60,000 nucleotides of DNA from Bolinopsis microptera (taxonomy: Eukaryota; Ctenophora; Tentaculata; Lobata; Bolinopsidae): NCBI RefSeq assembly GCF_026151205.1, contig NC_087079.1, positions 14,138,445 to 14,198,444 on the forward strand, read 5' to 3'. Shown one piece after another: positions 6,876 to 59,925 of the stretch. A program made the translations under genes and the position numbers. The notes below the pieces were generated by a model. It was not told the DNA's origin, did not search any database, and saw only the letters and a list, made by a program, of their open reading frames with translations. Every line of letters begins with the position of its first letter. Positions within the stretch are counted from its first letter, which is position 1.

Positions 6876-8787
6876 TCTGGGAAAAAATTTGCAACAAGCT
6901 GATTTTTACAGGAATGTGTTGTCCATAGTGTCAGGAACCACCCCAAAGAGTTTCCAATCTGGATCTGTTGAGCAAAAAAAGTTACAGCCAATTTTCTTCA
7001 GGCGCGTATGTCAGCCTGAGGACCGCACTTGAAAAACTCGTAACTATCGTAATAAAGACCCCCAGGAGCACCATAGGGGGTGCAAAATGACCGCAATAGT
7101 GACATTATGTGGGGCGAATCAGTGTTTCAGGGTCGTCAGATCTTTACTTATTGAGATAATTTCATTTTTATAGGCTAACCTCTCAAAAATTTACTAAAAT
7201 TTTGAAATTTTACTTAAATTTGGAAATTTAGCAAAATTGTTGTACAATTAAAACATTGTCTAGTTATCAGTATTCAAATTCTAAAATTTACTTTCAATTG
7301 TCAATTGATCCTTATATTAGTATAGTAAATAATATACATATCACATCAAATTCTGTAAAAAAAGGTCCTGAATTATTAGCATGGTGTCTTTGATTGGCAA
7401 CTATTAGGTCACTTCTGGCTATCCCATTTCCTCAGAGTTGTTTGATTCTCCTGAATCGTCCTGTCTTTCGAGTGCATTAGTGCAACTTAATCCATGACAT
7501 TGGCCACATGCAGGTAGACATTTAAAGCCATACTTCCGTCAGGAACACCTTAAGTACTTACAAGGGTTCTCAACCTCCACCGAGCAATTGCAGCAAATGA
7601 GGTTGAGCATCCCTGCCGGGGCAATCGCAGCTTTAGTCGGGATTGGCCGGTAGTATCCTTCAGAACTCATCTCCCATCCATAATGTAGTGGATTTAGACT
7701 TGCAGTGTCGAGTGTCACCCAGTTATGGTACTGAAGATATGATCTTAATATATGCTCAGTTGCAGAGGATGTAGACGGTGGTAGCCTTGATGGGTTGAGT
7801 TTTTTCTTTGCTATCATTCTACTGTAGCTGTAAGCTGAGAAATCTGAGAGTTTCAAGTGCCTTGGTTTTATCTCCATAGATATGTTGAAACAAGGAGTTA
7901 GGAGAGGCCAGCTTCAATTACTTCATTTGTTGAAACTCTCACAGTGAGTAATGATGCTAAATGACCCTCCTCATGAAAAGAAACTGCCTTTTTCAATATC
8001 TTCACCTTACCAAAGCCATGTATACTGCTGACCGTGTCACATCCTGGGAAACTGTGAACAAACAGTAATATGCGTTTTATGTTGGCATCAAGAGCATTTA
8101 CTATTTTACTGATCGAGTGTGAGCCGTTTCTGGTCGTCATCACAATTTCATTGTCATTCTCAGTAAAATGATGAATAAGGAGGCAAAGTATATCAGTATC
8201 CTCTGCTTTTACCTCAACATCTTCGTAGAAGGACAAGTTTAAAGCTTTACTAGCTACCATGGTATCAGCATCATCAGTAGCTACATGTACTTCAATTCCA
8301 TGTTCTGTAAAAACGTTCGACAGAAGCTTTATAAGCTCATGGTTGTTCTTTGAGTTGCTGAACAGTTTTTTCATCGGAACTGTGCACACAGTAGTACTTT
8401 TAATAGCTATATCAGAGCAGTATGCCTTGATTCTTCGCTGATGCTCATGATCTTTTGTTGATCGGGCATAGCCATCAAACACAACAATCACTTTCCGCTG
8501 TTCGGATTTCGGAACTAGCTTAAGGTATTCATTAGCTATGTCGCCGTATGTTTCAAAGCCTGTGAACGAGGTAACTTGATACGAGTAGCCATCCACCATC
8601 AATTATTAATGGAGAGGATGGGTTGCTAAATGTCACAGTACAATCAACAACATTCTTGAGGTATTGTCCAAGGGCTGCCTTGTTTGCCTTTCTCATCATC
8701 TGCTCATTGTTAAAAAGACTCATCGGCATTGCTGTGAGCTCATATTGGAAGCTTTCCTCCAGTGTAGACTCTCGTTCAGATGCGAAG
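6876..8787 (-). repeat. Left arm of the inverted repeat
   Basis: This arm is inverted relative to 9443-11340. About 540 bp at its outer end (6876-7418) is non-coding and corresponds to the 3' flank of the decayed gene. The match to the other arm stops at TGCGAAG (8787). Confidence 0.93.
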
Positions 8788-9440
8788 ACAAGCCGATTAA
8801 AAATTGTCAATGAGTCTATAACAATGTCTTTTTCGTTCACCCTCACTGTCCTCTTTAGAAGGGTCAAGTTTCCTACTCGAAACTTATCGATAAAGCTTTT
8901 GCCATCCAGCTCTTTCTGGAGGGCAGTACCAACTGAAATGCAATCTTCTGGGTTGACATTATCCTTCTCTTTCTGTGATATGAGACCCGTTGAGTACGAT
9001 AGCAGTTTAGTCTTGTCTTCAGATTCGTCGAAATCAGCTGTATCTTTAAACCAACACAACAGCTTGGTAAACACTGCAATATTTTTCTGTACAGAAGATT
9101 TGCTAAGATCTGAGTGATTAGCACTAGAGGCTTTTGTTGTTGTGTCATCGACACTCTCGTTTATCAACGCCATTTGGTTGAGGGTTGCAGTCCATAACTT
9201 ATGGGCAGATTCATGAGTTCGCATTCTCCCTCCAGACAAACCCCCTGATGAATTTGCAGCCTTCGTTAGTCGCTGTTCGATCGACAGGTCTGTCCACACA
9301 CCAGACCACTCGTGTTCATTATATCGAACTGTGTGCAGACCTACGACCTTGAACGTTTTGACTAGTGCCCCATACTGAATCTCAAGTACGGTAATCTGCT
9401 CAAGATACAGCCGTAGAGCTTTGGAGTACTGACCTCGACC
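7419..9440 (-). pseudogene. Decayed PIN-like/Cys-rich repeat-family gene, longer copy
   Basis: The frame is open from the spacer edge (about 9440) through 8585. It includes WSGVWTDLSIEQRL, a Gly-rich GGLSGGR patch and a region ending SPLIIDGGW. An extra base at 8582 then shifts the frame. The next part (7898-8582) carries acidic residues spaced as in PIN/FEN-like nuclease folds (VVFDGYARSTKD, ATDDADT, AEDTDILCLLIHH) and the motif PGCDTVSSIHGFGK. A further stop and shift precede 7539-7877, which holds the NPLHYGWEMS motif and the start of a Cys cluster. After an in-frame TGA at 7539-7541 the Cys cluster continues to a TAG at 7419-7421. From memory, this architecture recurs as an uncharacterised multi-copy family in many invertebrate genomes. 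The nuclease-like fold is an inference from the acidic motifs. The true N-terminus is missing. Confidence 0.72.
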
Positions 9441-9442
9441 TG

Positions 9443-11340
9443 CTTCGCATCAGAACGAGAGTCTACACTGGAGGAAAGCTTCCAATATGAGCTCACAGCA
9501 ATGCCGATGAGTCTTTTTAACAATGAGCAGATGATGAGAAAGGCAAACAAGGCAGCCCTTGGGCAATACCTCAAGAATGTTGTTGATTGTACTGTGACAT
9601 TTAGCAACCCATCCTCTCCATTAATAATTGATGGTGGATGGCTACTCTATCAAGTTACCTCGTTCACAGGCTTTGAAACATACGGCGACATAGCTAATGA
9701 ATACCTTAAGCTAGTTCCGAAATCCGAACAGCGGAAAGTGATTGTTGTGTTTGATGGCTATGCCCGATCAACAAAAGATCATGAGCATCAGCGAAGAATC
9801 AAGGCATACTGCTCTGATGTAGCTATTAAAAGTACTACTGTGTGCACAGTTCCGATGAAAAAACTGTTCAGCAACTCAAAGAACAACCATGAGCTTATAA
9901 AGCTTCTGTCGAACGTTTTTACAGAACATGGAATTGAAGTACATGTAGCTACTGATGATGCTGATACCATGGTAGCTAGTAAAGCTTTAAACTTGTCCTT
10001 CTACGAAGATGTTGAGGTAAAAGCAGAGGATACTGATATACTTTGCCTCCTTATTCATCATTTTACTGAGAATGACAATGAAATTGTGATGACGACCAGA
10101 AACGGCTCACACTCGATCAGTAAAATAGTAAATGCTCTTGATGCCAACATAAAACGCATATTACTGTTTGTTCACAGTTTCTCAGGATGTGACACAGTCA
10201 GCAGTATACATGGCTTTGGTAAGATATTGAAAAAGGCAGTTTCTTTTCATGAGGAGGGTCATTTAGCATAATTACTCACTGTGAGAGTTTCAACAAATGA
10301 AGTAATTGAAGCTGGCCTCTCCTAACTCCTTGTTTCAACATATCTATGGAAATAAAACCAAGGCACTTGAAACTCTCAGATTTCTCAGCTACAGTAGAAT
10401 GATAGCAAAGAAAAAACTCAACCCATCAAGGCTACCACCGTCTACATCCTATGCAACTGAGCATATATTAAGATCATATCTTCAGTACCATAACTGGGTG
10501 ACACTCGACACTGCAAGTCTAAATCCACTACATTATGGATGGGGGATGAGTTCTGAAGGATACTACCGGCCAATCCCGACTAAAGCTGCGATTGCCCCGG
10601 CAGGGATGCTCAACCTCATTTGCTGCAATTGCTCGGTGGAGGTTGAGAACCCTTGTAAGTACTTAAGGTGTTCCTGACGGAAGTATGGCTTTAAATGTCT
10701 ACCTGCATGTGGCCAATGTCATGGATTAAGTTGCACTAATGCACCCGAAAGACAGGACGATTCAGGAGAATCAAACAACTCTGAGGAAATGGGATAGCCA
10801 GAAGTGACCTAATAGTTGCCAATCAAAGACACCATGCTAATAATTCAGGACCTTTTTTTACAGAATTTGATGTGATATGTATATTATTTACTATACTAAT
10901 ATAAGGATCAATTGACAATTGAAAGTAAATTTTAGAAGTTGAATACTGATAACTAGACAATGTTTTAATTGTACAACAATTTTGCTAAATTTCCAAATTT
11001 AAGTAAAATTTCAAAGTTTTAGTAAATTTTTGAGAGGTTAGCCTATAAAAATGAAATTATCTCAATAAGTAAAGATCTGGCGACCCTGAAACACTGATTC
11101 GCCCCACATAATGTCACTATTGCGGTCATTTTTCACCCCCTATGGTGCTCCTGGGGGTCTTTATTACGATAGTTACGAGTTTTTCAAGTGCGGTCCTCAG
11201 GCTGACATACGCGCCTGAAGAAAATTGGCTGTAACTTTTTTTGCTCAACAGATCCAGATTGGAAACTCTTTGGGGTGGTTCCTGACACTATGGACAACAC
11301 ATTCCTGTAAAAATCAGCTTGTTGCAAATTTTTTCCCAGA
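9443..11340 (+). repeat. Right arm of the inverted repeat
   Basis: This is the inverted copy of 6876-8787. It begins exactly inside the codon run Phe-Ala-Ser-Glu of the gene and ends with the same terminal motif as the left arm. Compared with the left arm it lacks 6 bp in the Gly-Lys/Ile-Leu region (near 10221) and 7 bp near 10388. Confidence 0.93.
9444..10797 (+). pseudogene. Decayed PIN-like/Cys-rich gene, 5'-truncated inverted copy
   Basis: This is the same gene's 3' two-thirds in inverted orientation, beginning mid-codon at the arm edge. It keeps the frame across the position that is shifted in the other copy (9651 region), so IIDGGWLLYQVTSF reads through. It has its own nonsense codon at 10269-10271 (TCA in the other arm reads TAA here), shares the frame break just downstream near 10320, then reads LFQHIYGNKTKALETL to an in-frame TGA at 10675-10677. 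Beyond it, RKYGFKCLPACGQCHGLSC continues the zinc-binding-like Cys cluster to TAG at 10795-10797. The TGA sits where the family has Cys. Lesions are distinct between the copies, so both have decayed since duplication. Confidence 0.72.
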
Positions 11341-47100: not shown

Positions 47101-50100
47101 AATTTGTTTTCAAATTTTTGAACTAAGTTTGCATTTTGGTGAGAACTTCTGGCACCAGTATGACAGAAGATGTTTAAAGAATAGTATTCATCAAACAAAA
47201 CGAACATTGTTCAATAGAGGAAGAAACAAAATGTTAAAATGGCTAAACGCCTCACAAAATGGCCAAAATATGCCTCACAAAATGGCCAAAATTTAAAACT
47301 CCTTTTATTCAATGAAACCATAAGTCTAAAGTATTCACAAGCTATTTATCATACAATAACACCCCAGATGGAGTGTTTTTACAGCCGAATGAAGGTTATA
47401 AATCATGAAATCAGGGAATATGAACAACGCCACACAAAATGGCCATTTTTGGTGTAGGAAATTATGCCCTTTTTATTCAGTTCTAAGAAATTTCACCTAT
47501 ATGGGGGTGTTAACAAGGCATATTAATACCAGCAGCATGCCTGAAACAAGAGCCAAAGGTTTTAGAAAAATAAAATTTTCTCGTTTTCTTTTTTTTTTGC
47601 CATTTTGTCAGGCATTTTTTCTTTTTTGTGAAATAATTTTTCACAGCTCAGTTTTTTCGTGAGTTTTAGGTTATTACCCCATTCCTTAATAGGTTTTCTA
47701 ACAACGTGTGGTGTTAGAAATTTAAAAAGTATCTCCATCAACAAAATTATAGAAATTCAGATTTGGCCATTCTGTGAGGCATGTTTTTTTGGAGGAAGAT
47801 TTTCCGGCCAATTTTTCTCAAAGAAAAAATGGTTATGAGATTAAATCAACCCCCGGGAAGACAAATATGAGTGTCAACTTAGCTTCTTATGAGATAAAAA
47901 CTGGAATAAAGTGTGTTTTGTGATTTTGAGAGACCTTCCTTTTTTTGGCCATTCTGTGAGGCAAATACCCGTAAATAAAATGAAATAAACTGCGAAATAT
48001 TTGTACCTCATCAAAGCGCCAGCTGCCTGCGCTCGCACGTGAAAATGTTTATCAGCCAGTAGTTTGACCAACACAGGAATACACCGAACTTTCACCGCCC
48101 TCTTCTTACCTTCCAATGGGAAACTGAAAATGGTAATTAACGGTTTATTGCATCATGATCTTATACCTAATCTTAACAGTTCTTCCTAAATTCATATGAT
48201 TGTCATGAATTCCACTGCGCCAAATTCGGTTGGAACTCCTCGATCAATCATGAATAAACCCACCTGATATCCATTATATCTCGAGCTGCTTTTCCTCTTA
48301 TCTCCCACGTCTCATGACCCAGAAGGGAGGTGAAGACCTCCATAGCCTGAGCTGCAAGGGCCTGATTTGTGTCCACTTTCATGCAGTAGTGTAGGGTATC
48401 CAATACTAGTTGCTGAAAACAGACCAGTACTTCATGATTATACTCAATATTTATTGAGTTGACAAACTCACCCAACAGTGCAACATGTACATTGTACAAA
48501 TACATTTAAATATTTATGTGGGTATTTTACCTTAATTTCGTCGGTTTCAGTTTTAAGCTTTTCGACTAGTTTCTTGATGAGATTAGCATTAACAATCCCT
48601 TGAGCACCATTGACTGTATGACTAACACTCTCAACAGCCCTGAAGAATTTTATTCTTCTCAATGCGCCTCACTTTAATCACGGAAATCGTAGATTCGATT
48701 AAAAATTACCGAAATAAATCTACGTAGACTTTCTTGTGGATACCTGTGAGACATAAGTCTGGCATCTTCGTGTTTGTCGTCAAATAATGCTGATATTGGC
48801 TGAATGAGATCAAACTCTAATATAGCATCTCGACCGATGGCGTGGTTAGAGCAAATGAAAAGCACCTCAGTTGCTTTCCACCGGACAGTCCCATCTGAAT
48901 CACCTAATAGTTTCTTTAGACTCTTGGCCATTCCTGAAAAAAAATTTTAAATACGCACAGGGAAATCCTAAATAACTTACCCTTCATTTTGTATACCTGC
49001 TTCTGACTGTGATACATCAATCTACCTTTTGTAGTGTTAAATAATAATGATAGTACATTGTCATGTATATTGTTTGCACTGTGCCGCGCGCGCGACGGTT
49101 GTTAGGGAAACGCGCGAAATAAATAGTCTTTTCGTATAAAGCACTAGGCGCCCTACAAAACTGTATTTTTTATGATGGTTTGGGACAGGTAGAACCCATT
49201 TTTAAACTAAAACATGTCCCACCTACCCCGGAACATAAAAGCACTACAGCCTACAGGGGTAAAGATTTTAAAGTCTGGATTTTAGCTGGATTTCGGTAAT
49301 TTTGGGATGGGCGTGGCCCCTGGGAGTGGCCTGAGTGGGTTGAGAGGTCGAAACTTGATTTTTATGATGGTTTGGGACAGGTAGAACCCATTTTTAAACT
49401 AAAACATGTCCCACCTACCCCGGAACATAAAAGCACTACAGGGGTAAAGATTTTAAAGTCTGGATTTTAGCTGGATTTCGGTAATTTTGGGATGGGCGTG
49501 GCCCCTGGGAGTGGCCTGAGTGGGTTGAGAGGTCGAAACTTGATTTTTATGATGGTTTGGGACAGGTAGAACCCATTTTTAAACTAAAACATGTCCCACC
49601 TACCCCGGAACATAAAAGCACTACAGGGGTAAAGATTTTAAAGTCGGGATTTTAGCTGGATTTCGGTAATTTTGGGATGGGCGTGGCCCCTGGGAGTGGC
49701 CTGAGTGGGTTGAGAGGTCGAAACTTGATTTTTATGATGGTTTGGGACAGGTAGTACCCATTTTAAATCTAAAACATGTTCCACCTACCCTGGAACATAA
49801 AAGCACTACAGGGGTGAAAAGCACTACAAATGCACTCCAAAAATCGAGGAAACGTGCTCTCCAAAACTGGCGATGAATCCAACTCACATCGTCTAGTAGA
49901 TCTTCTATACAAGTGTAAGCGAATGTCGCCCCAGTTCAGATGCAAGATAATTCCTTTCATTTAGCCAATAAAAAACGTACTGGTAATGTCCAACCAGAGT
50001 TTGCTAGTAGCCATCATTGCATATTATTAGTTAGTACAGTAAAAACTCGATGTACCGCGTCTCCAATTACCGCAAACCCCGATTTACCGCAGTTTTTTCT

Positions 50101-51670: not shown

Positions 51671-54600
51671 ATGAACCAGCTAGTTTTGCTGACTTCGGTA
51701 TTGGTGGTCTGTTCTATCGCAACAGACCCGATCGTGAATGATTCCAAGAATTATTTGGTCAGACTTCGAAGGGCAGCAGAAGAGACTAAAGGTACACAAT
51801 TGTTGAGCTTATATTTTTAGGAATTATGAACGAAAAAATAGAAACCACCCACAATTCTCGTCCAAGCTTCTTACTCTTAGAATTGCCGTTTCTGCTCATA
51901 CACTTATAGATTTAATGAAAATGTATAATCACCATTAACCTGAAGTTTATTTAAGTTTCAAACCCAAGATTGCACAAAACAGAAAAAAATGTTTTAATGG
52001 ATAATTACATCGATATTTTTACAGATACATACGTTGGCCTTTATAATATTTTCCACGAATTATTTCCCCGAAAAGTCGTGGACACTGGTAACCGATAATT
52101 TCCCGCAAGGGTTGCTAGAGTATTATGAGGACAGACTGCAAGTCACCTCCAACTGGGTGGCGGGAAGTTTCAAAACAAATAACAGTTGCGCACTATATCG
52201 TATCAGCGCACGTATCACATTACCCATTGTTTCATCCAGAACCGGAAAAAATTATTGTATTATAATAGCTCAGTCACTGTGGACCTGATTGAGATAATTC
52301 TTTCTGGTATGACTTACTATCACCACTCATTCGACTATTCGAGGAGTTTATAAAATCAAAGAATATCCATGTCCATTTTTTCAAAATGAAGGTTCATTCT
52401 CGCATTTATTCGATATTTTGAATAATCGGAGTGATTCAAATTGTGATGAGTTGTGTTTAGTCATTCGAATTACACCTGCCTTGCAAAAATGAGATTTCTA
52501 GCTTCTCAAATGACCGAAACATTAAAAGCACTAGCAGGAACCCGTCTAACCCTAAAGTGGTGTCAAGACTCGAGAGACTAAAATAATTTTTACCTATTTA
52601 ATTCGCGTTTTTGACACCACTTGGCGGTCCAAATTTTGGGCACTAAAATTCTTATTTCTTGACAAATTTTTTATTTTTTCATGCTAATTTGAAGGCCATT
52701 AAAGCATTTGACCCAGTCAAAAAAGTTTCAGTTGTATATCTTTTACGGTTTTTGCGAAAAGTCGCGTTAAAGTTGATGCCGTGGTGTCAGTAAAATGGCA
52801 CGGATCCATCCATCCATATATTTATTATCGTCTCGCTTTATATATAGTAAGATAACAAGTTTATTCATACCGTGTGATCAGGTGATTGGCTTAGCTGATC
52901 ACGTGATTAGGTGACCCCCGACCCCCTGTATCGAGTGGCATAATCGATTATACGTATCATCCTTACTAAACACTACAGTTATTTTGTTAAAGTAATGAAA
53001 ACTTTCGCAAGAATCAGTTGCACACAATGAAGATTAAATTTAAAAGTACAGCTAGATAACTAATGCTCTTAAATTTCGTCAGGTGGTGCACGTATAAGTC
53101 TTGACTGCTGGGGGGACGGTCATAATCGAGCAATCAGTGGCGGTATAAGATTCACAGGATCAATTGAAAAATGTGAAAAATTTGCCATAGATAACAATTT
53201 CAAGGTCTTTGCCGTTCAACATGGTGGAGAATGCTTTACTGCAGAAGATGCTGGCCAAAACTGACCCTGACCCTGACCCTGACCCTGACCCTGACCCTGA
53301 CCCTGACCCTGACCCTGACCCTGACCCTGACCCTGACCCTGACCCTGACCCTGACCCTGACCCTGACCCTGACCCTGACCCTGACCCTGACCCTGACCCT
53401 GACCCTGACCCTGACCCTGACCCTGACCCTGACCCTGACCCTGACCCTGACCCTGACCCTGACCCTGACCCTGACCCTGACCCTGACCCTGACCCTGACC
53501 CTGACCCTGACCCTGACCCTGACCCTGACCCTGACCCTGACCCTGACCCTGACCCTGACCCTGACCCTGACCCTGACCCTGACCCTGACCAATTGTCGTA
53601 CTAAACCCTAGATTTCGCGACAATTGACCCCAGTTACATATAATAGGGGTTAATTGTCGGGGGGTTAATTGTCGGGGGTCAATTGTCGGGGGTCAATTGT
53701 CTAGTACTATATAATAGAATATTTTGATATCCTAATTTGTTTACTATACAATATTTATTATTTATATTATTAATATTATAATAATAAGGCTTATATTTCA
53801 GAGGAAGAGGAAGTTGTTGTAAATTATTGTCCTACTGATTATCCCAACGTCTACTACAACGGACAGTACTGTTGTAAATCCAACATGGAGAAGTTCAACA
53901 AGGCTCAGGGTGCCCAATGTGACGGCAGTGTGATTCAGAGAGACAGTTTGTGTTGCGCGGGAGACAAGTACACGTCGTGCCCCGGTGAAAACTGTGTGAG
54001 CAGTGGTCACAAGTTTACAGGTTCGTAGTTTATCAGTAATTAATAAAGGTATTCGACAATGAAAACGAGATGAATAACTATGGTAAAAAAGGGTAAGAAC
54101 CAATATACTATAAAACGCATGTTTTTACTCTGCCCTTACATATCACGGTCAACCCTCGTTGACCGTCTCTGACGGAGTCTTACCCTTAAACTACACTTAC
54201 CCTTAAACTAACACTTTCAGCCCTTGCTGACCGTCCTTATATCAGGCCCAAATCCACTATAGTTCATTCTTGCTCTACCTGAGCCCGATTGTTGTTGACA
54301 CGAACTCACTCGCGTTTGATCACCCCGTGTTGACCCTGGCTACAACACAGCCAATTCCTGCTCTGCTGAGTCAACCTTTGTTGACTCTCCCTACGATTAA
54401 GCCAGACTGCTCATGTCCTCCGCACAGTTCCACTAACTACAGACCACGATAATGCTCTCACCAGGACCCTAACGTAACAGGTCTTGGCTCCAAAGTATCC
54501 TACATCAATGGCCCTCTTCGATTCGGGCAAACTCAATCTGACTCTTCCAGGTCCAGCTCCCAGACATAAATAATGTTCCGTGTGTGGTTTTCACCCGACC

Positions 54601-57600
54601 GTACCAAGCTCACAGGATCTTTACAGCTGTCCTTATCTGTCACAAAAGGGTCCACTCCGTCTCATTGTCCCGGGTGCAGGTGTTAGATTGATCTATCTTG
54701 ACCCAAATCTCCCTGTCTGACGGCCTTTGTAACTATTGTTTAGAACTCTCGTGCTTTAGGGACTAGCTTTAACTCCAGTTACATACAGGATTTATGTCTG
54801 ACAGGTGAGGTTCCAGCTATTTTCTCCCCGTCTTCTCTCCTCCCCTCACTTACGATGTCACCTGCCTAAACTCTGATGTCGAATTGCTGATTATGGCCAT
54901 CTCCTAACTCCTCCAACTATAATACAATAATATAACAATCACGGCTTACAACTGTGAGAGCAACCCAGCACCCACTGCAGTCACACCAGGTGAGTTGGTC
55001 GTATAATTAGTATAATTAGTATAATTAGTTTATAGGCTTCAAATCTTGATATCCTTTAATTCGTCCGGAGAGAGGGATGCAAGTTGATCTTACGAACTTA
55101 GTAAACCTCAACAAAAAGGGCATTTTAAGAGAAGCACCGCATCTAGTTGCTAGGTGCTTCTTTAAGTTTAATTTGTAGGTTTACAACCTACCAGGACGCG
55201 CGCCGAGTTGGAATATATGGAACAGATATTTTACGAGTATCACCCGTTAAAGTTTAAGAGAAGTACCCTATCTATTTGCTATGTGCTTTTTTAAGAGAAG
55301 CACCATATCTAGTTGATAGGTGCTTCTTTAAGAGAAGCACTGGGTGGGCGACAATTGACCCCATAATTTGACCCTGACCCTGACCCTGACCCTGACCCTG
55401 ACCCTGACCCTGACCCTGACCCTGACCCTGACCCTGACCCTGACCCTGACCCTGACCCTGACCCTGACCCTGACCCTGACCCTGACCCTGACCCTGACCC
55501 TGACCCTGACCCTGACCCTGACCCTGACCTTGCTTCAAAGTAGCGCGCGCCGGGCTAGTCCATTAAAAATGGACAAGGAGTTTATCAAATCAAAACATAT
55601 CTATGTCCATTTTTTCCAAATGAAATTGAAGGTTCATTCTCGCATTTATTCGATATTTTGAATAATCGGAGCGATTCAAATTGTGATGAGTTGTGTTCAG
55701 TCATTCGAATTACACCTGCCTTGCAAAAATGAGATTTCTAGCTTCTCAAATGACCGAAATATTAAAAGCATAACAAGTTTAATCATACCGTGTGATCAGG
55801 TGATTGCTAACAAAATAAACAAAATGCTTGATAACCTCGTCATTTCAAATCTCTATCGCCTCATATTTTTGCAGATCAGATGCAACAATCAATTATTTAC
55901 AGTAATCTGAAAAAAATAGGGCGTCCAGCATGTTCGAAATAAACAACATAGGTGATTTAATATTGAATGTGCGTGATCTAAAATATTCTTATTTTCAAAT
56001 TTTGGCGACATAATCCTTGAATAAGTAGGTACAGTATTTGAGTAACAAGTCTCAAATATGAAACAAGGTGGTGGTATAAGACTAAACGTATATAAACCGA
56101 CTTTTGCCCCAAGTTCAACAATAAACATGGTTGCACAAGATAAGAATAAGTTATCTTTTTGTCAAAGTAATGAAAACTTTCGCAAGAATCAGGTGCACAC
56201 AATAAATATTAAATTTTAAAGTACAGCTAGATAATTAATGCTCTTAACTTTCTTCAGATGGTGCACGTATAAGTCTGGGTTGCTGGAGGGACGGTTGGAA
56301 TCGAGCAATCAGTGGCGGTATAAGATTCACAGGATCAATTGAAAAATGTGAAAAATTTGCCATAGATAACAGTCTCAAGGTCTTTGCCGTTCAAAATGGA
56401 GAATGCTTTACTGCAGAAGATGCTGGCCAGACTTACCAAAAATATGGCAAAGCTGGTAATTGTAAGGACGGCAAGGGCGGTGGTTTCGCTAACGATGTCT
56501 ATCAAGTTGGAGAAAGTCAATCTAGAAATGGTAATAAGAACTCTTTGAACCCAAAGATTGAAAGTAACCAATAAATTATATAACCTTATATAGGAGATTG
56601 GAGGATGCAATGCTAAATGCTTATCGAAAGCTTCTACTTTGAATCGTTCACAATTATAATTTTATCTTTACAGATGACGGTATAGTAGAAAATCCTGTAA
56701 AAAATGCCAAGTACAGCTTAGGCAAGGACTTCGAACCGGGAGATTTTATAGATGTCCATGGAATCTATAATTCTAGATCCGAATTTGGCATCATTGACAT
56801 CTTTGATGGAAGTGACAACATTCTAATTCACATCCTCATTAAACCAGGCTGGCAGCACATATGTGAGTCAGATCAAGTTGGCAAACCGTAAAAACATAAC
56901 TGTTTTATAAATTAGTACTAGTTTAACGTCCCTGTTAAATGTTCACGGAAACATTCCAATCCATTGATCAGTTAGCCGACTTTAAAATCCATGTCTTAAA
57001 TATCATTTAAAAGTAAATGTGCATGAAATTTCAGATCTAAATTCGAGATTTGGTGGAGGGTTTGGAAATCCACAGTATGATTGTGAACTTCCAAAGACAT
57101 TGCAATCAAACGAGGATTTCGTCATGAGAATAGTTATGATGGACGAACTTTACAAAATATTTGTCAATGGAGTGAATCTCTCACATAAATTCCCATATCG
57201 AGCACCGATTTCTACATCGAAATACATCGTGATCAGGGGCACGGATGGCTTCAAATGGAACAAATTTATTTTACCACGAACGGAAAAAGCTGGTTAGTGA
57301 AATAAAATATTGTTCTATCCTTAAAGAAAATTTGTGTAGCCATTTATTATAGTTAACAAATAATAAATAAAAAGATCACAATTTTTAACAAAGGATAACA
57401 TTTTCAGAACAATATAAGGAATTTAGAGCATTTCAATCAAGCATTGAAGGACTAAAAAAGGTAATTCTGAAGAATGTAGTTGGACAAAGCCTTTTGGACG
57501 TCAAATCATATGCTAGCTCAACTCAGGGATCACTTGACGTCTTCCAATGGTGGCTCAAGAAACAAATCCTTGAAAATGAAAAAGGCGGTGTTCTACAGTT

Positions 57601-59254
57601 TGGTGACGAGACAGTTGACTGGATTCTAGCAAACAGAGAAGCATTAGAAATGTTCATGACCTCAGGAGATATAAAAGGCAACAAATATCAAGAGGCTCTG
57701 GAAATACTAAGAGACCTGATCCAAGAAGATCCTGCCATCAAAGAGGAAGCCCTGAGACTCAGACTCGCTGTTGCCACTGCCATCGTCTTTTCATCACCAG
57801 TAGATGGATTCGGCTTTAAACGACGCAAAATCGATTGGATGTCAAGGTACCATACCTACATGAGATGGAGTCAAGAAGGTATTTTGTACTCTCCATTCTA
57901 TGAAGGAACTGCTTGGCATCTCCGTTTTGTAGTTCACTCACGATCAAGAGAGGAAGAGCATCTTTGGGTACGAGAAAACACTCCAGAGGGATTTGATAAC
58001 CCAAACAAAATAGGTGATGCATGCCATCAAATGATTAGCTACAAAATGAATAACGATGACGGAGTTTCAATCCACCCTCACACTCTCCGATACTATTACT
58101 ACGTTCCAATAAATCTGAAAGCATGGCATGATATTGGAGGCGTCTGTGGTTCAATATCAACAATGGCTGCAGGGATGTGCCACGCATATGGAGTACCAGC
58201 CGCAACTGTAGGGCAGCCTGGTCACTGTGCTTACGTATGGTATAGAAATGGCAACTGGCAACTAGGAAACAGCGTCTCTGATTGGGCGGAAACGTTTCAT
58301 GGCGACATGTATATGGGTCGAGCGTATTTCTTTCCAGTGATGAATGAAGCTCAAAAGAACCTTGAGGGTTACAGACTGTCTGAAAAAATGAGAATCATCA
58401 GTCGGCTGGCGAATCCTGAAGATCGATTTGAAATATTGGAGGATGCTACAACAGAATGCCCGTACAACTTCGCTGTGTGGCTTGATCTGGAAGGTGCAAT
58501 AGACGAACCGAATCTGCAGAAAGAAACAGTACAAAATGTACTGTTACCAACCCTTTTGAAACAGCAGGAAAAAGAAACACAGGTTTCGGACATTGCCAGG
58601 GAAAAGGTTGGCACGTCTGAGTGCTTTGGGGATGACAGAATGAAAAAGCTTCTTGTTGGTCTTGGCAGTGTTCAGTGCAAAGATCAAGAAACATTTGATT
58701 TTGAAGTAGATTTGGGGAAGCCTTCAACAATAAAGGAGGTTAAGATTAAGTGGATTGGATTTAATAGGGGAGTTGAGTATGGTATCTATGCTCTGGGCGA
58801 AGATAGTGACTACGTTCTGGTAAGAACACACAAGGATGAGAAAGTCGAAGGATGGTGGTACCCTTTGATTACTCTTGATGGATGGGACATGACAACTACT
58901 AAAATAAAATTTCACATGACAAAAAAGGGCGGAAGAGCGAACTCCTTTGCCATCACAAAATTAATTGTCATGGGAGTTTGCCACGATTTTCCTGATGACA
59001 TGTCGAAGGGTAAGCCGGTAAAAGCAAATCCTGGTAGTTCAGATCCTGTTACTCTGGTGGATGGTACTAACTCTACCATATGGAACGGAAACAGTGAGAC
59101 TAGCTGGTTTGAGATTAATCTCAAGAGAATTTGCGCTCTAGATGACATAGAATTCTTTTGGGTTGATGGTGCGAAACCAGAAAATGTTAAAGTCGTATAT
59201 AAAGTGGGGAGTGGCCAAGATGCTCAAAAATTGGGAGAAGATCCTTTTGAAAAG
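51671..59254 (+). CDS. Secreted multidomain lectin / transglutaminase-like protein (at least 969 codons, 3' end beyond window)
   Basis: The exons are 51671-51791, 53802-54020, 56258-56530, 56674-56862, 57035-57292 and 57408-59254. The first five introns are all phase 1, so the modules are shufflable. Exon 1 gives a signal peptide (MNQLVLLTSVLVVCSIA) and a basic linker. Exon 2 is a Cys-rich module with two CC pairs (GQYCCKS, SLCCAGDKYTSCP). Exon 3 is a WSC-like Cys module (LGCWRDGWNRAI, FAVQNGECFTAEDAG, GGGFANDVYQ). Exons 4-5 form a galectin-like lectin (LNSRFGGG, YKIFVNGVNL, FPYRAP). Exon 6 holds a transglutaminase-like core with a Cys-His-Asp candidate triad at 58145 (GGVCGS), 58223 (QPGHCAYVWY) and 58280 (VSDW). 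After it come one F5/8C-like sandwich (FDFEVDLGKPSTIKEVKIKW) and the start of a second (59016 on). Exon 6 ends at a perfect donor AAG/GTAAGT, so the protein probably continues. Read through, it would stop at 59263. It is inferred to act outside the cell on glycan-bearing targets. Confidence 0.82.
52034..52288 (+). CDS. Unplaced open frame in intron 1 of the lectin gene
   Basis: After an acceptor-like TTTTTACAG (ending at 52023) the frame reads FSTNYFPEKSWTLVTDNFPQ and on to LEYYEDRLQVTSNW before a TGA at 52286. Joined to exon 1 in phase 1 the frame would be a different one and would stop after 23 codons, so it does not fit the main transcript. It could be a decayed exon, an alternative terminal exon or chance. 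Confidence 0.25.
   Translation: MAFIIFSTNYFPEKSWTLVTDNFPQGLLEYYEDRLQVTSNWVAGSFKTNNSCALYRISARITLPIVSSRTGKNYCIIIAQSLWT
52531..52852. mobile_element. ~320-bp insertion unique to copy A
   Basis: Copy B reads straight from ATTAAAAGCA into TAACAAGTTT, giving the empty site. Copy A has about 320 bp between them, beginning CTAGCAGGAACCCGTCTAAC and ending in an AT-rich tail with a CATCCATCCA iteration and TATATATAG. The asymmetrical structure with a repetitive 3' tail resembles a short retroposon, but no family is recognised. Confidence 0.55.
53083..53261 (+). pseudogene. Duplicated WSC-like exon truncated by a hexamer array
   Basis: An acceptor (TCGTCAG) and about 59 codons match functional exon 56258-56530 (LDCWGDGHNRAISGGIRF, FAVQHGGECFTAEDAGQ). 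The reading frame then runs directly into the CCCTGA array, whose first TGA (53262-53264) is a stop in this frame. The last third of the module and the donor are missing. The core Cys residues before the break are intact, so truncation may be the main lesion. The main transcript must skip it. Confidence 0.82.
53262..53590. repeat. (TGACCC)n hexamer array 1, about 55 units
   Basis: Perfect TGACCC tandem array. The opposite strand reads (TCAGGG)n, one base from the metazoan telomeric TTAGGG and with the same GGG spacing needed for G-quadruplexes. All long open frames across it (Asp-Pro, Gln-Gly, Leu-Thr, Arg-Val) are artefacts. Confidence 0.98.
53640..53700. repeat. 14-bp tandem repeat GGGGGTCAATTGTC
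   Basis: About four units of GGGGGTYAATTGTC follow the array. The complementary motif GACAATTGACCCC occurs at 53620 and at 55350, directly left of array 2. These may be the sequence from which the hexamer arose. Confidence 0.85.
54021..55120. other. Composition-shifted intron segment, unassigned
   Basis: 54120-54910 is noticeably richer in C and T than its surroundings, with iterated CCCTNGTTGACC-like and TTACCCTTAAACTA-like text. Short open patches occur (54270-54452, and one reading CSVCGFHPTVPSSQDLYSCP near 54571), none splice-bounded or recognisable. It could be a degraded element. A possible donor CACCAG/GTGAGT lies at 54989. ATAATTAGT is repeated three times near 55004-55030. Confidence 0.35.
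55121..55340. repeat. Cluster of related hairpins (AAGAGAAGCACC ... GGTGCTTCTT)
   Basis: TTTAAGAGAAGCACC and GGTGCTTCTTTAA pair across about 16 bp at 55121-55166. A diverged copy lies at 55250-55300 and another good copy at 55293-55333, followed by a half unit to 55340, immediately left of array 2. Confidence 0.8.
55369..55529. repeat. (TGACCC)n hexamer array 2, about 27 units
   Basis: Same unit and orientation as array 1. It is bounded on the left by ACAATTGACCCC and on the right by a GTAGCGCGCGCCGGGC block related to the cluster at 59.5 kb, after which duplication copy B begins. Confidence 0.98.
55574..56420 (+). repeat. Segmental duplication, copy B
   Basis: Partner of 52343-53261. It begins about 45 bp after array 2 and its right block includes the intact WSC-like exon of the main gene. 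It lacks the roughly 320-bp insertion. Confidence 0.9.
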
Positions 59255-59519
59255 GTAAGTTAAGCAAAAAATTTGACATTTCGATTGGTATGGTCATAAT
59301 GCAGAACTCAAATTCAATAATCAAGATCAAACTTACATCCACTTTGACTGCTTTTTTGCAAATACTTTTTTTCAGATCCTGGCCGGGCCTCACATAAAAT
59401 CGCAATTTTTTAAGTTCTCCGCATCAACTTTTGCATTTTCCTTTAAATCTTTGTATCACATAGTGACCCCACGGCCGTTTCATTATGGTGAGCTGCGCGA
59501 TAGTGTGCGGCGCGTCATA
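59255..59519. other. Intron or 3' flank of the lectin gene
   Basis: This follows the AAG/GTAAGT donor. No further exon is visible before the window ends. Confidence 0.5.
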
Positions 59520-59925
59520 CATTGACCATTGTTAATGGTCTGGCCCGGCGCGCGCTACTTCGTAGCACGTGTTGACGGATGTTACTCGTCTAAATTTCTT
59601 CGAAGTAGCGCGCGCCGCTTTCTTCTCGAAATGGTCCGATGGCACGTGCTACGAAGTAGCGCCCGCCGGGCCAGATCATTAACAATGGTCAAAGCACGTG
59701 CCATCGAGAAGTAAGCGGCGCGGCGCGCGCCGAGCTACTTCGAAGAAATTTAGACGAGTAACATCCGTCAAGTTATATAACGTATGACAATTAAATTTGA
59801 CGGATGTTACTTGTTTAAATTTCTTCGAATTAGCGCGCGCCGCTTTTTTCTTGAAATGGCCCGATGGCAAGTGCTACGAAGTAGCGCGCGCCGAGCCAGA
59901 TCATTAACAATGGTCGACATGAATT
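59520..59925. repeat. Nested GC-rich inverted and direct repeat cluster
   Basis: The outer pair GACCATTGTTAATGGTCTGG (59523 on) is inverted at 59642-59690. An overlapping pair of about 75 bp (GACGGATGTTACTCGTCTAA ... GCACGTG) at about 59571-59645 is inverted at 59694-59770. A third, direct, diverged copy runs 59802-59918. All share the core GAAGTAGCGCGCGCCG. A solo core lies at 55540-55560. The open frames on both strands here are incidental. Confidence 0.88.

Follow-up and report, generated by a model that had tools for sequence, protein, structure and literature searches.

We analysed a 60,000-nt stretch of chromosome C8 of the ctenophore Bolinopsis microptera (C8:14138445-14198444, contig NC_087079.1), hereafter called the window, whose positions serve as coordinates throughout. 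Near its end, on the forward strand, lies a gene for a predicted secreted protein in which a galectin domain is followed by a Cys-His enzyme core of bacterial type and by F5/8C-like modules. A first-pass annotation, made by a model from the sequence, had proposed six exons joined in phase 1. When the window sequence was spliced and translated in this way, all borders were AG/GT and 969 codons were read with no stop. The same annotation had ended the gene at 59254, but this position is a splice donor, and coding continues to 62763: a last exon (62560-62763; acceptor CAG, 67 codons, TAA) lies in the flanking genomic sequence beyond the window. This exon is matched by the C-terminal end of the paralogs described below, and the full seven-exon product has ~1036 residues.

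Exon organization and domain content

Exon 1 (51671-51791) has an open frame and a GT donor and encodes a signal peptide, recognized by eye, and a short pro-segment. An RLRR furin-type site can be read at 51761-51772, which suggests processing by furin. Exon 2 (53802-54020), defined by its splice borders, encodes a cysteine-rich module with no Pfam match. The cysteine module of exon 3 (56258-56530) had been called WSC-like; it scored below the cut-off of the Pfam WSC profile (PF01822, 20.0 bits vs 27.8), but the exon itself recurs, with 58 matches in the genome. As the galectin profile has 30 genomic matches (the window's own being counted in both cases), both are common local modules.

Exons 4 (56674-56862) and 5 (57035-57292) encode the two halves of the galectin domain, an assignment that the spliced product confirmed well above the cut-off (Gal-bind_lectin PF00337, 43.5 bits vs 22.1, E = 2.7e-11). 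The very long exon 6 (57408-59254, with a GTAAGT donor at 59255) encodes the enzyme core (57410-58612), a first F5/8C-like module (58613-58970), and the start of a second one (58971-59254), which is completed by exon 62560-62763. The profile evidence for these modules in the window copy was mixed, since PF22633 was marginally above its cut-off (28.0 bits vs 27.8) and PF00754 below (25.9 vs 28.2); the modules nevertheless recur in paralogs, and in two of them (L095 and L097) F5/8C is clearly above cut-off.

A multigene family in the ctenophore genome

The core matches 24 stretches of the genome, which we grouped manually into ~15 loci, with family copies on C3, C4, C5, C6, C7, and C8. These genes reside in the host chromosomes and are not contamination, as they contain introns, carry animal modules in the same gene, and occur on six chromosomes. 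The multigene family, the bacterial-type core, and a broken second WSC-like exon (53083-53257) all go beyond the first-pass annotation.

A twin gene at C8:4.40 Mb has the cysteine-rich, WSC-like, two galectin, large, and last exons at the same splice sites, and its cysteine-rich exon is 96% identical to exon 2. A search of the 6.3 kb preceding the twin's second exon did not find an exon 1, and the twin does not corroborate the joining of exons 1 and 2 of the window gene. The paralog at C4:12.10 Mb consists of a single uninterrupted frame of 956 aa that runs through leader, RLRR, galectin, core, F5/8C, and C-terminus, and a stretch resembling exon 1 (TDPI..NYL.RLRR) precedes its galectin. That galectin and core form one polypeptide is shown most strongly by this intronless copy, which also bears out the proposal that a single secreted protein combines a galectin, a transglutaminase-like core, and F5/8C modules in this order.

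Other copies differ in their modules. At its N-terminus, the C4:4.02 copy shows a weak match to DUF3011 (E = 0.0089; 16.4 bits vs a cut-off of 25), and two exon-2-like cysteine-rich modules stand in tandem upstream of the C5:2.88 core, with which we assume them to form one gene. The clustered copies on C3 combine the core with repeated F5/8C modules, and the C7 paralog contains an in-frame TGA.

Bacterial relatives of the enzyme core

No Pfam or NCBIfam model matched the core above its cut-off, and the 615-aa exon product had no match in NCBIfam. One NCBIfam family appeared on the core alignment, in 2 of 30 members and up to E = 0.019; we took this as chance. A PDB sequence search with the core returned no match, and the best E in a profile search was 1.1.

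Relatives were found in bacteria. A pattern search of one genome per species yielded 292 candidate stretches, of which 111 were relatives and 79 loci were kept. In the best segments, the core is 24-40% identical to bacterial proteins, chiefly from Planctomycetota, Akkermansia, and Bacillota, with relatives in Verrucomicrobiota and other groups as well; Planctomycetota lead the matches (~36% identity). Among 294 genomes evenly sampled from the phylum of the L003 genome, 36 matched, but only three (the L003 genome included) did so at E < 1e-100, so the close form of the core is rare. No relative was found in phage records or in two viral-contig scans, the second of which gave 285 pattern matches and no confirmed relative. 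By tblastn, the core was also detected on Enterococcus plasmids (6 of 72,556 records), and two annotated records name the protein a putative mucin/carbohydrate-binding protein. Five of the six plasmids are typed as conjugative; core loci lie at 4756-7179 of L002 and 6621-9050 of L001.

The uncharacterized Cys-His proteins of Planctomycetota (e.g. L003, L004, L015) can be aligned with most of the core; for the L003 type, identity is ~31-38%. They share a GGVCG...VGQPGHCA motif and the Asn discussed below, and signal-peptide-like N-termini were seen by eye in the six proteins inspected. Unlike the window protein, L003, L004, and L015 have no galectin and no binding module above cut-off in Pfam. 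A different set of relatives, from Akkermansia, Clostridium, Eubacterium, Gottfriedia, Erysipelotrichales, and the Enterococcus plasmids, follows the same enzyme-plus-binding-module logic as the ctenophore protein, but at ~25-33% identity (local alignments) and with bacterial instead of animal modules, known in Enterococcus from annotation. Half of the ten bacterial relatives scanned carry binding modules: F5/8C is above cut-off in L027, L029, L040, and L049, with NPCBM in addition in L040, and L031 has Mucin_bdg without F5/8C above cut-off.

Active site and predicted fold

The first-pass annotation had placed a Cys-His-Asp site at 58145, 58223, and 58280. All three codons are present, and the first two residues held up. 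Cys600 (58145-58147), which begins a helix and is the predicted nucleophile, and His626 (58223-58225), the predicted catalytic base, are invariant in 29 of 29 relatives in one alignment and in 53 of 53 in a wider one (of the 79 loci), and both are kept in all 11 ctenophore copies examined. The third residue fared differently: position 645 (58280-58282), Asp in the window copy, is Gly in 29/29 relatives and in 50/53 of the wider set, where Asp never occurs (0/53). The likeliest third catalytic residue is instead Asn641 (58268-58270), just past the strand after the His, and this assignment is likely but not certain. Asn occupies this position in 27/29 relatives, in 37/53 of the wider alignment (with 7 Tyr and 9 gaps), and in 10/11 ctenophore copies. 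Because one of the two scan patterns contained the His, only the conservation of Cys and Asn is independent of the search.

The core was refolded after a first prediction in which confidence was low beyond residue 392. The resulting AlphaFold2 (AF2) model reached a mean predicted local distance difference test score (pLDDT) of 89.9 and a predicted template modelling score (pTM) of 0.90. In this model, the Cys starts a helix (246-259), the His stands before a strand (275-279), and the Asn (residue 287 of the model) follows another strand (282-286), an order that we take to be that of transglutaminase-like enzymes. In a Foldseek search, 35 of the first 50 listed rows, counted by eye, had the transglutaminase fold, among which we included three 3isr chains and protein 4.2 on the assumption that they share it; the best probability was 0.96 and the best E 0.31. 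The top match is titled putative cysteine protease, and the listed neighbours include transglutaminases 2 and 3 and factor XIII.

Sequence profiles drew the core less close to that superfamily. It did not reach the cut-off of Transglut_core (PF01841; 12.6 bits vs 23, E = 0.17), 5 of 30 core sequences matched this profile with E no higher than 0.1 (0.023 for the best), and the five PF01841 matches of the ctenophore genome all lie at loci other than this core family. No transglutaminase N- or C-terminal domain was found in the product by Pfam. The structural comparison thus suggests, although not significantly, what the earlier description of the core as transglutaminase-like had proposed, whereas the profiles do not, and we regard a transglutaminase-like fold of the modelled core as probable.

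Lectin site and divergence from the C8 twin

We scored the lectin site by the residues that we take to be the classical sugar-binding set of galectins (H-N-R, N, W-E-R). By eye, the window copy retains two of these seven (H and N), the C8 twin six, and the C4 single-frame paralog all seven. The glycan recognition proposed in the first-pass annotation therefore needs qualification: the domain is a galectin by profile, but galactose recognition by the window copy is weakened because the classical site is largely lost.

Between the window gene and its C8 twin, nonsynonymous divergence (dN) is 0.126 and synonymous divergence (dS) 0.152 over 987 codons, giving a dN/dS of 0.83. Under neutral divergence from the twin, ~15 stop codons would be expected, whereas none was seen, so the open frame is not due to chance. 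Three short introns, 396 positions in all, show 18 differences (94-98% identity); the comparison is confined to them, as other non-coding parts differ strongly in length or align only partly, the last intron measuring 3.3 kb in one gene and ~0.3 kb in the other (window gene and twin, respectively). Synonymous sites differ more than the short introns (Fisher p = 1e-6), although the excess is not significant outside the patches described next (p = 0.08).

The changes are unevenly distributed. Hot spots fall on the galectin sheet and site (including 57035-57120 in exon 5), on the loops before Cys600 and after His626, on the first F5/8C-like module, and on part of the last exon. Beside the active site, identity to the twin drops to 58% in 58260-58319, compared with 90-97% in the two adjoining segments on each side, and the patch at 58262-58335, which was chosen after the data had been seen, has a dN of 0.579 and a dS of 0.422. 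As all six patches were selected once the identity profile was known, their dN and dS values are inflated. A permutation test that is independent of the patches found the amino-acid changes to be clustered (0/5000), while purely synonymous codons gave 300/5000, with power that differs between the two classes (205 codons with an amino-acid change vs 44 purely synonymous). In bacteria, mean conservation is higher in the two active-site loops than elsewhere (entropy 1.34 and 1.41 vs 1.72). Diversifying selection, gene conversion, or both would explain this patchy divergence.

Phylogenetic position of the core

We placed the core in a tree of 66 rows, comprising 53 of the 79 bacterial loci, two Enterococcus sequences, and 11 ctenophore rows; the 26 loci dropped were near-duplicate or short, and included L019, which is titled Bacteroidia and lies near Planctomycetota rows. 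The C7 copy with the TGA, two split C3 copies, one further C3 copy, and fragments on C13 and C10 were not placed. The root is arbitrary, the rows represent bacteria and this ctenophore genome only, and the program flagged long branches and odd composition.

The 11 ctenophore rows form one side of a branch with support of 100/99. With the same support (100/99), this clade joins 21 bacterial rows that group together (98/90); of these, 18 are titled Planctomycetota and three 'uncultured bacterium'. The join held in a reduced set from which six long branches had been removed, including the C6 ctenophore row, so that ten ctenophore rows were left. Forcing the ctenophores together with Bacillota-type rows, a group named after the tree had been seen, was 21.3 log units worse (approximately unbiased test, p-AU = 0.0147). 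Because the ctenophore copies form one clade beside Planctomycetota-type rows, the core was likely acquired horizontally, probably from Planctomycetota-like bacteria, in a comparison made with bacteria.

Proposed function and alternative explanations

Taken as a whole, these data suggest, with a probability that we put at about 0.55, that the protein is a cysteine hydrolase guided by its lectin to glycoprotein substrates, with a core that came from bacteria and animal modules that were added by exon shuffling. An amide hydrolase of glycoproteins or cell walls is favoured because the protein is predicted to be secreted, has binding modules, and has bacterial relatives that carry modules for binding mucin or carbohydrate. 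A secreted Cys-His enzyme of bacterial origin would have entered an ancestral ctenophore and would then have gained animal recognition modules through phase-1 exon shuffling. Anchored by these modules on mucus, on prey, or on glycoconjugates of microbes, the enzyme might cut peptide or amide bonds there by means of Cys600, with His626 and probably Asn641 activating this residue. Family members would vary their N-terminal modules, and rapid change would affect their lectin site as well as the walls of the active site and the first F5/8C module; such diversification could give each copy a different target. A role in immunity, as suggested earlier, is possible. Ctenophores are possibly the oldest animal branch, and we offer as a speculative and rather unlikely extension that they run a diversifying lectin-guided arsenal: one planctomycete-type enzyme spread over ~15 loci with interchangeable heads (galectin, WSC-like, Cys-rich, DUF3011-like) and now evolving fast where sugar is bound, along the walls of the active site, and in the first F5/8C module, serving as an innate immune, prey-digesting, or self-recognition system.

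Several observations weigh against the hydrolase interpretation. The third catalytic residue is uncertain, with Asn in only 37 of 53 relatives, and two residues beside the active site are atypical, Ser642 (Ser in 5/53) and Asp645. Together with the loss of most of the classical lectin site, these residues mean that the window copy may be inactive. The Foldseek E-values are not significant. Four of the ten bacterial relatives scanned, three of them from Planctomycetota, have no recognized binding module, and a fifth, L053, has F5/8C below cut-off. Horizontal transfer is not proven, as no eukaryote besides this genome was compared, and two Planctomycetota rows (L044 and L056) stand elsewhere in the tree, on long branches. 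Finally, dS is raised within the patches as well (0.371 vs 0.079 outside), which is compatible with gene conversion too.

We therefore weighed other explanations of the same data. Conversion from unseen paralogs, in place of selection on the protein, could by itself have produced the patches and is a serious possibility, if short of even odds; it would account for the raised dS and is compatible with the hydrolase interpretation, but it sits less easily with the coincidence of the patches with binding and active-site loops and with the clustering of amino-acid changes (that of purely synonymous codons not being significant, at the unequal power noted above). It is unlikely that the core is instead an ancient gene of eukaryotes that has been lost, or has escaped detection, in other lineages, with no transfer from bacteria. 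The sampling of a single eukaryote and the arbitrary root leave room for such a history, whereas the position of the ctenophore rows next to Planctomycetota-type rows inside a bacterial tree, the rejection of the post hoc Bacillota-type grouping, and the confinement of the core to a single exon argue for acquisition. We consider it distinctly improbable that the window copy serves as a pseudoenzyme, or purely for recognition, with the fold kept as a scaffold while its binding surfaces diversify. The unusual Ser642 and Asp645, the rebuilt loop after the His, and the gene-wide dN/dS would suit this role, but Cys600, His626, and Asn641 are all retained and the frame has stayed intact.

Lower still is our estimate for a crosslinking transglutaminase, which the lectin and F5/8C modules would place on mucus or matrix to join Gln and Lys side chains. 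Ctenophores are gelatinous and mucus-rich, and the nearest PDB folds include true transglutaminases, which would be in keeping with such an enzyme. Set against this, the core misses the Transglut_core cut-off, the genome's own matches to that profile lie outside the family, the relatives found are bacterial, some of them with mucin-binding modules, and the top fold match is titled as a protease; matrix crosslinking, one of the roles first suggested, thus found no specific support. That the exons belong to separate genes, or that the gene is dead, is very improbable indeed: the exon model derives from DNA alone, exon 1 of the C8 twin was not found in the stretch searched, and one paralog has an in-frame stop, but the single-frame C4 paralog, the same last six exons in the C8 twin, and the freedom from stops all speak for one intact gene.

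Relation to known systems

The core shares its predicted fold class and its Cys-His order with animal transglutaminases (TG2, TG3, factor XIII). It differs from them in having Asn, not Asp, at the likely third position, in falling below the Transglut_core cut-off, and in having no listed N- or C-terminal domains. From galectins, the window domain differs by the signal peptide ahead of it, by its fusion to an enzyme, and by the replacement of most classical galactose-binding residues.

Bacterial genes domesticated in ctenophores, mostly encoding enzymes, have been described (Hernandez and Ryan 2018, PMC6005172). In the available part of that paper, none of the nine functions listed for such horizontally transferred genes is transglutaminase-like or F5/8C, and the text mentions neither a transglutaminase nor a lectin. 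One of those genes, known here by description only, encodes an uncharacterized Firmicutes-type protein without a Pfam domain. Within one open library, a coverage that gives no proof of novelty, we found no paper on this combination of modules or on the bacterial enzymes.

The gene combines a core family without Pfam or NCBIfam assignment with an animal galectin, in a lineage close to the animal root. As a bacterial enzyme that was probably transferred and then gained animal modules by exon shuffling, it is a tractable case for study. The intronless, intact, diverged, and broken copies provide a natural series for studying how lectin targeting and catalytic specificity co-evolve. The family also points to an apparently uncharacterized enzyme of Akkermansia and other gut bacteria.

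Other features of the region

Intron 1 contains the truncated second copy of the WSC-like exon on the forward strand (53083-53257), whose translation runs into a stop. It belongs to a block (52982-53257) that is 92% identical to the region of exon 3 (56157-56429), and it is cut by a perfect hexamer array, (CTGACC)55, at 53261-53590. A second hexamer array occurs at 55369-55529, and another duplicated block pair at 52342-52530 and 55576-55770. The last intron has direct and inverted repeats with GCGCGC motifs at 59522-59915. Just downstream of the gene lies an orphan galectin-exon fragment (L090:3518-3616, ~63074-63172 in window coordinates) that is 67% identical to exon 4 over 33 residues.

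Elsewhere in the genome, innexin gene pairs with identical scores were noted on C1 (4254005 and 4378223) and C7 (6754013 and 6935049), which suggests that they were duplicated recently or that the assembly contains uncollapsed haplotypes. Two further features were seen in the window. Exons of a helical-repeat gene at ~47874-49101 on the reverse strand appear by eye to be RSPH14-like (a radial-spoke protein); Pfam gave only sub-threshold repeat matches, in one of the two pieces. An inverted pair of near-identical long open frames (7898-8602 and 8553-9449 on the reverse strand, 9417-10271 on the forward strand) looks transposon-like by eye.

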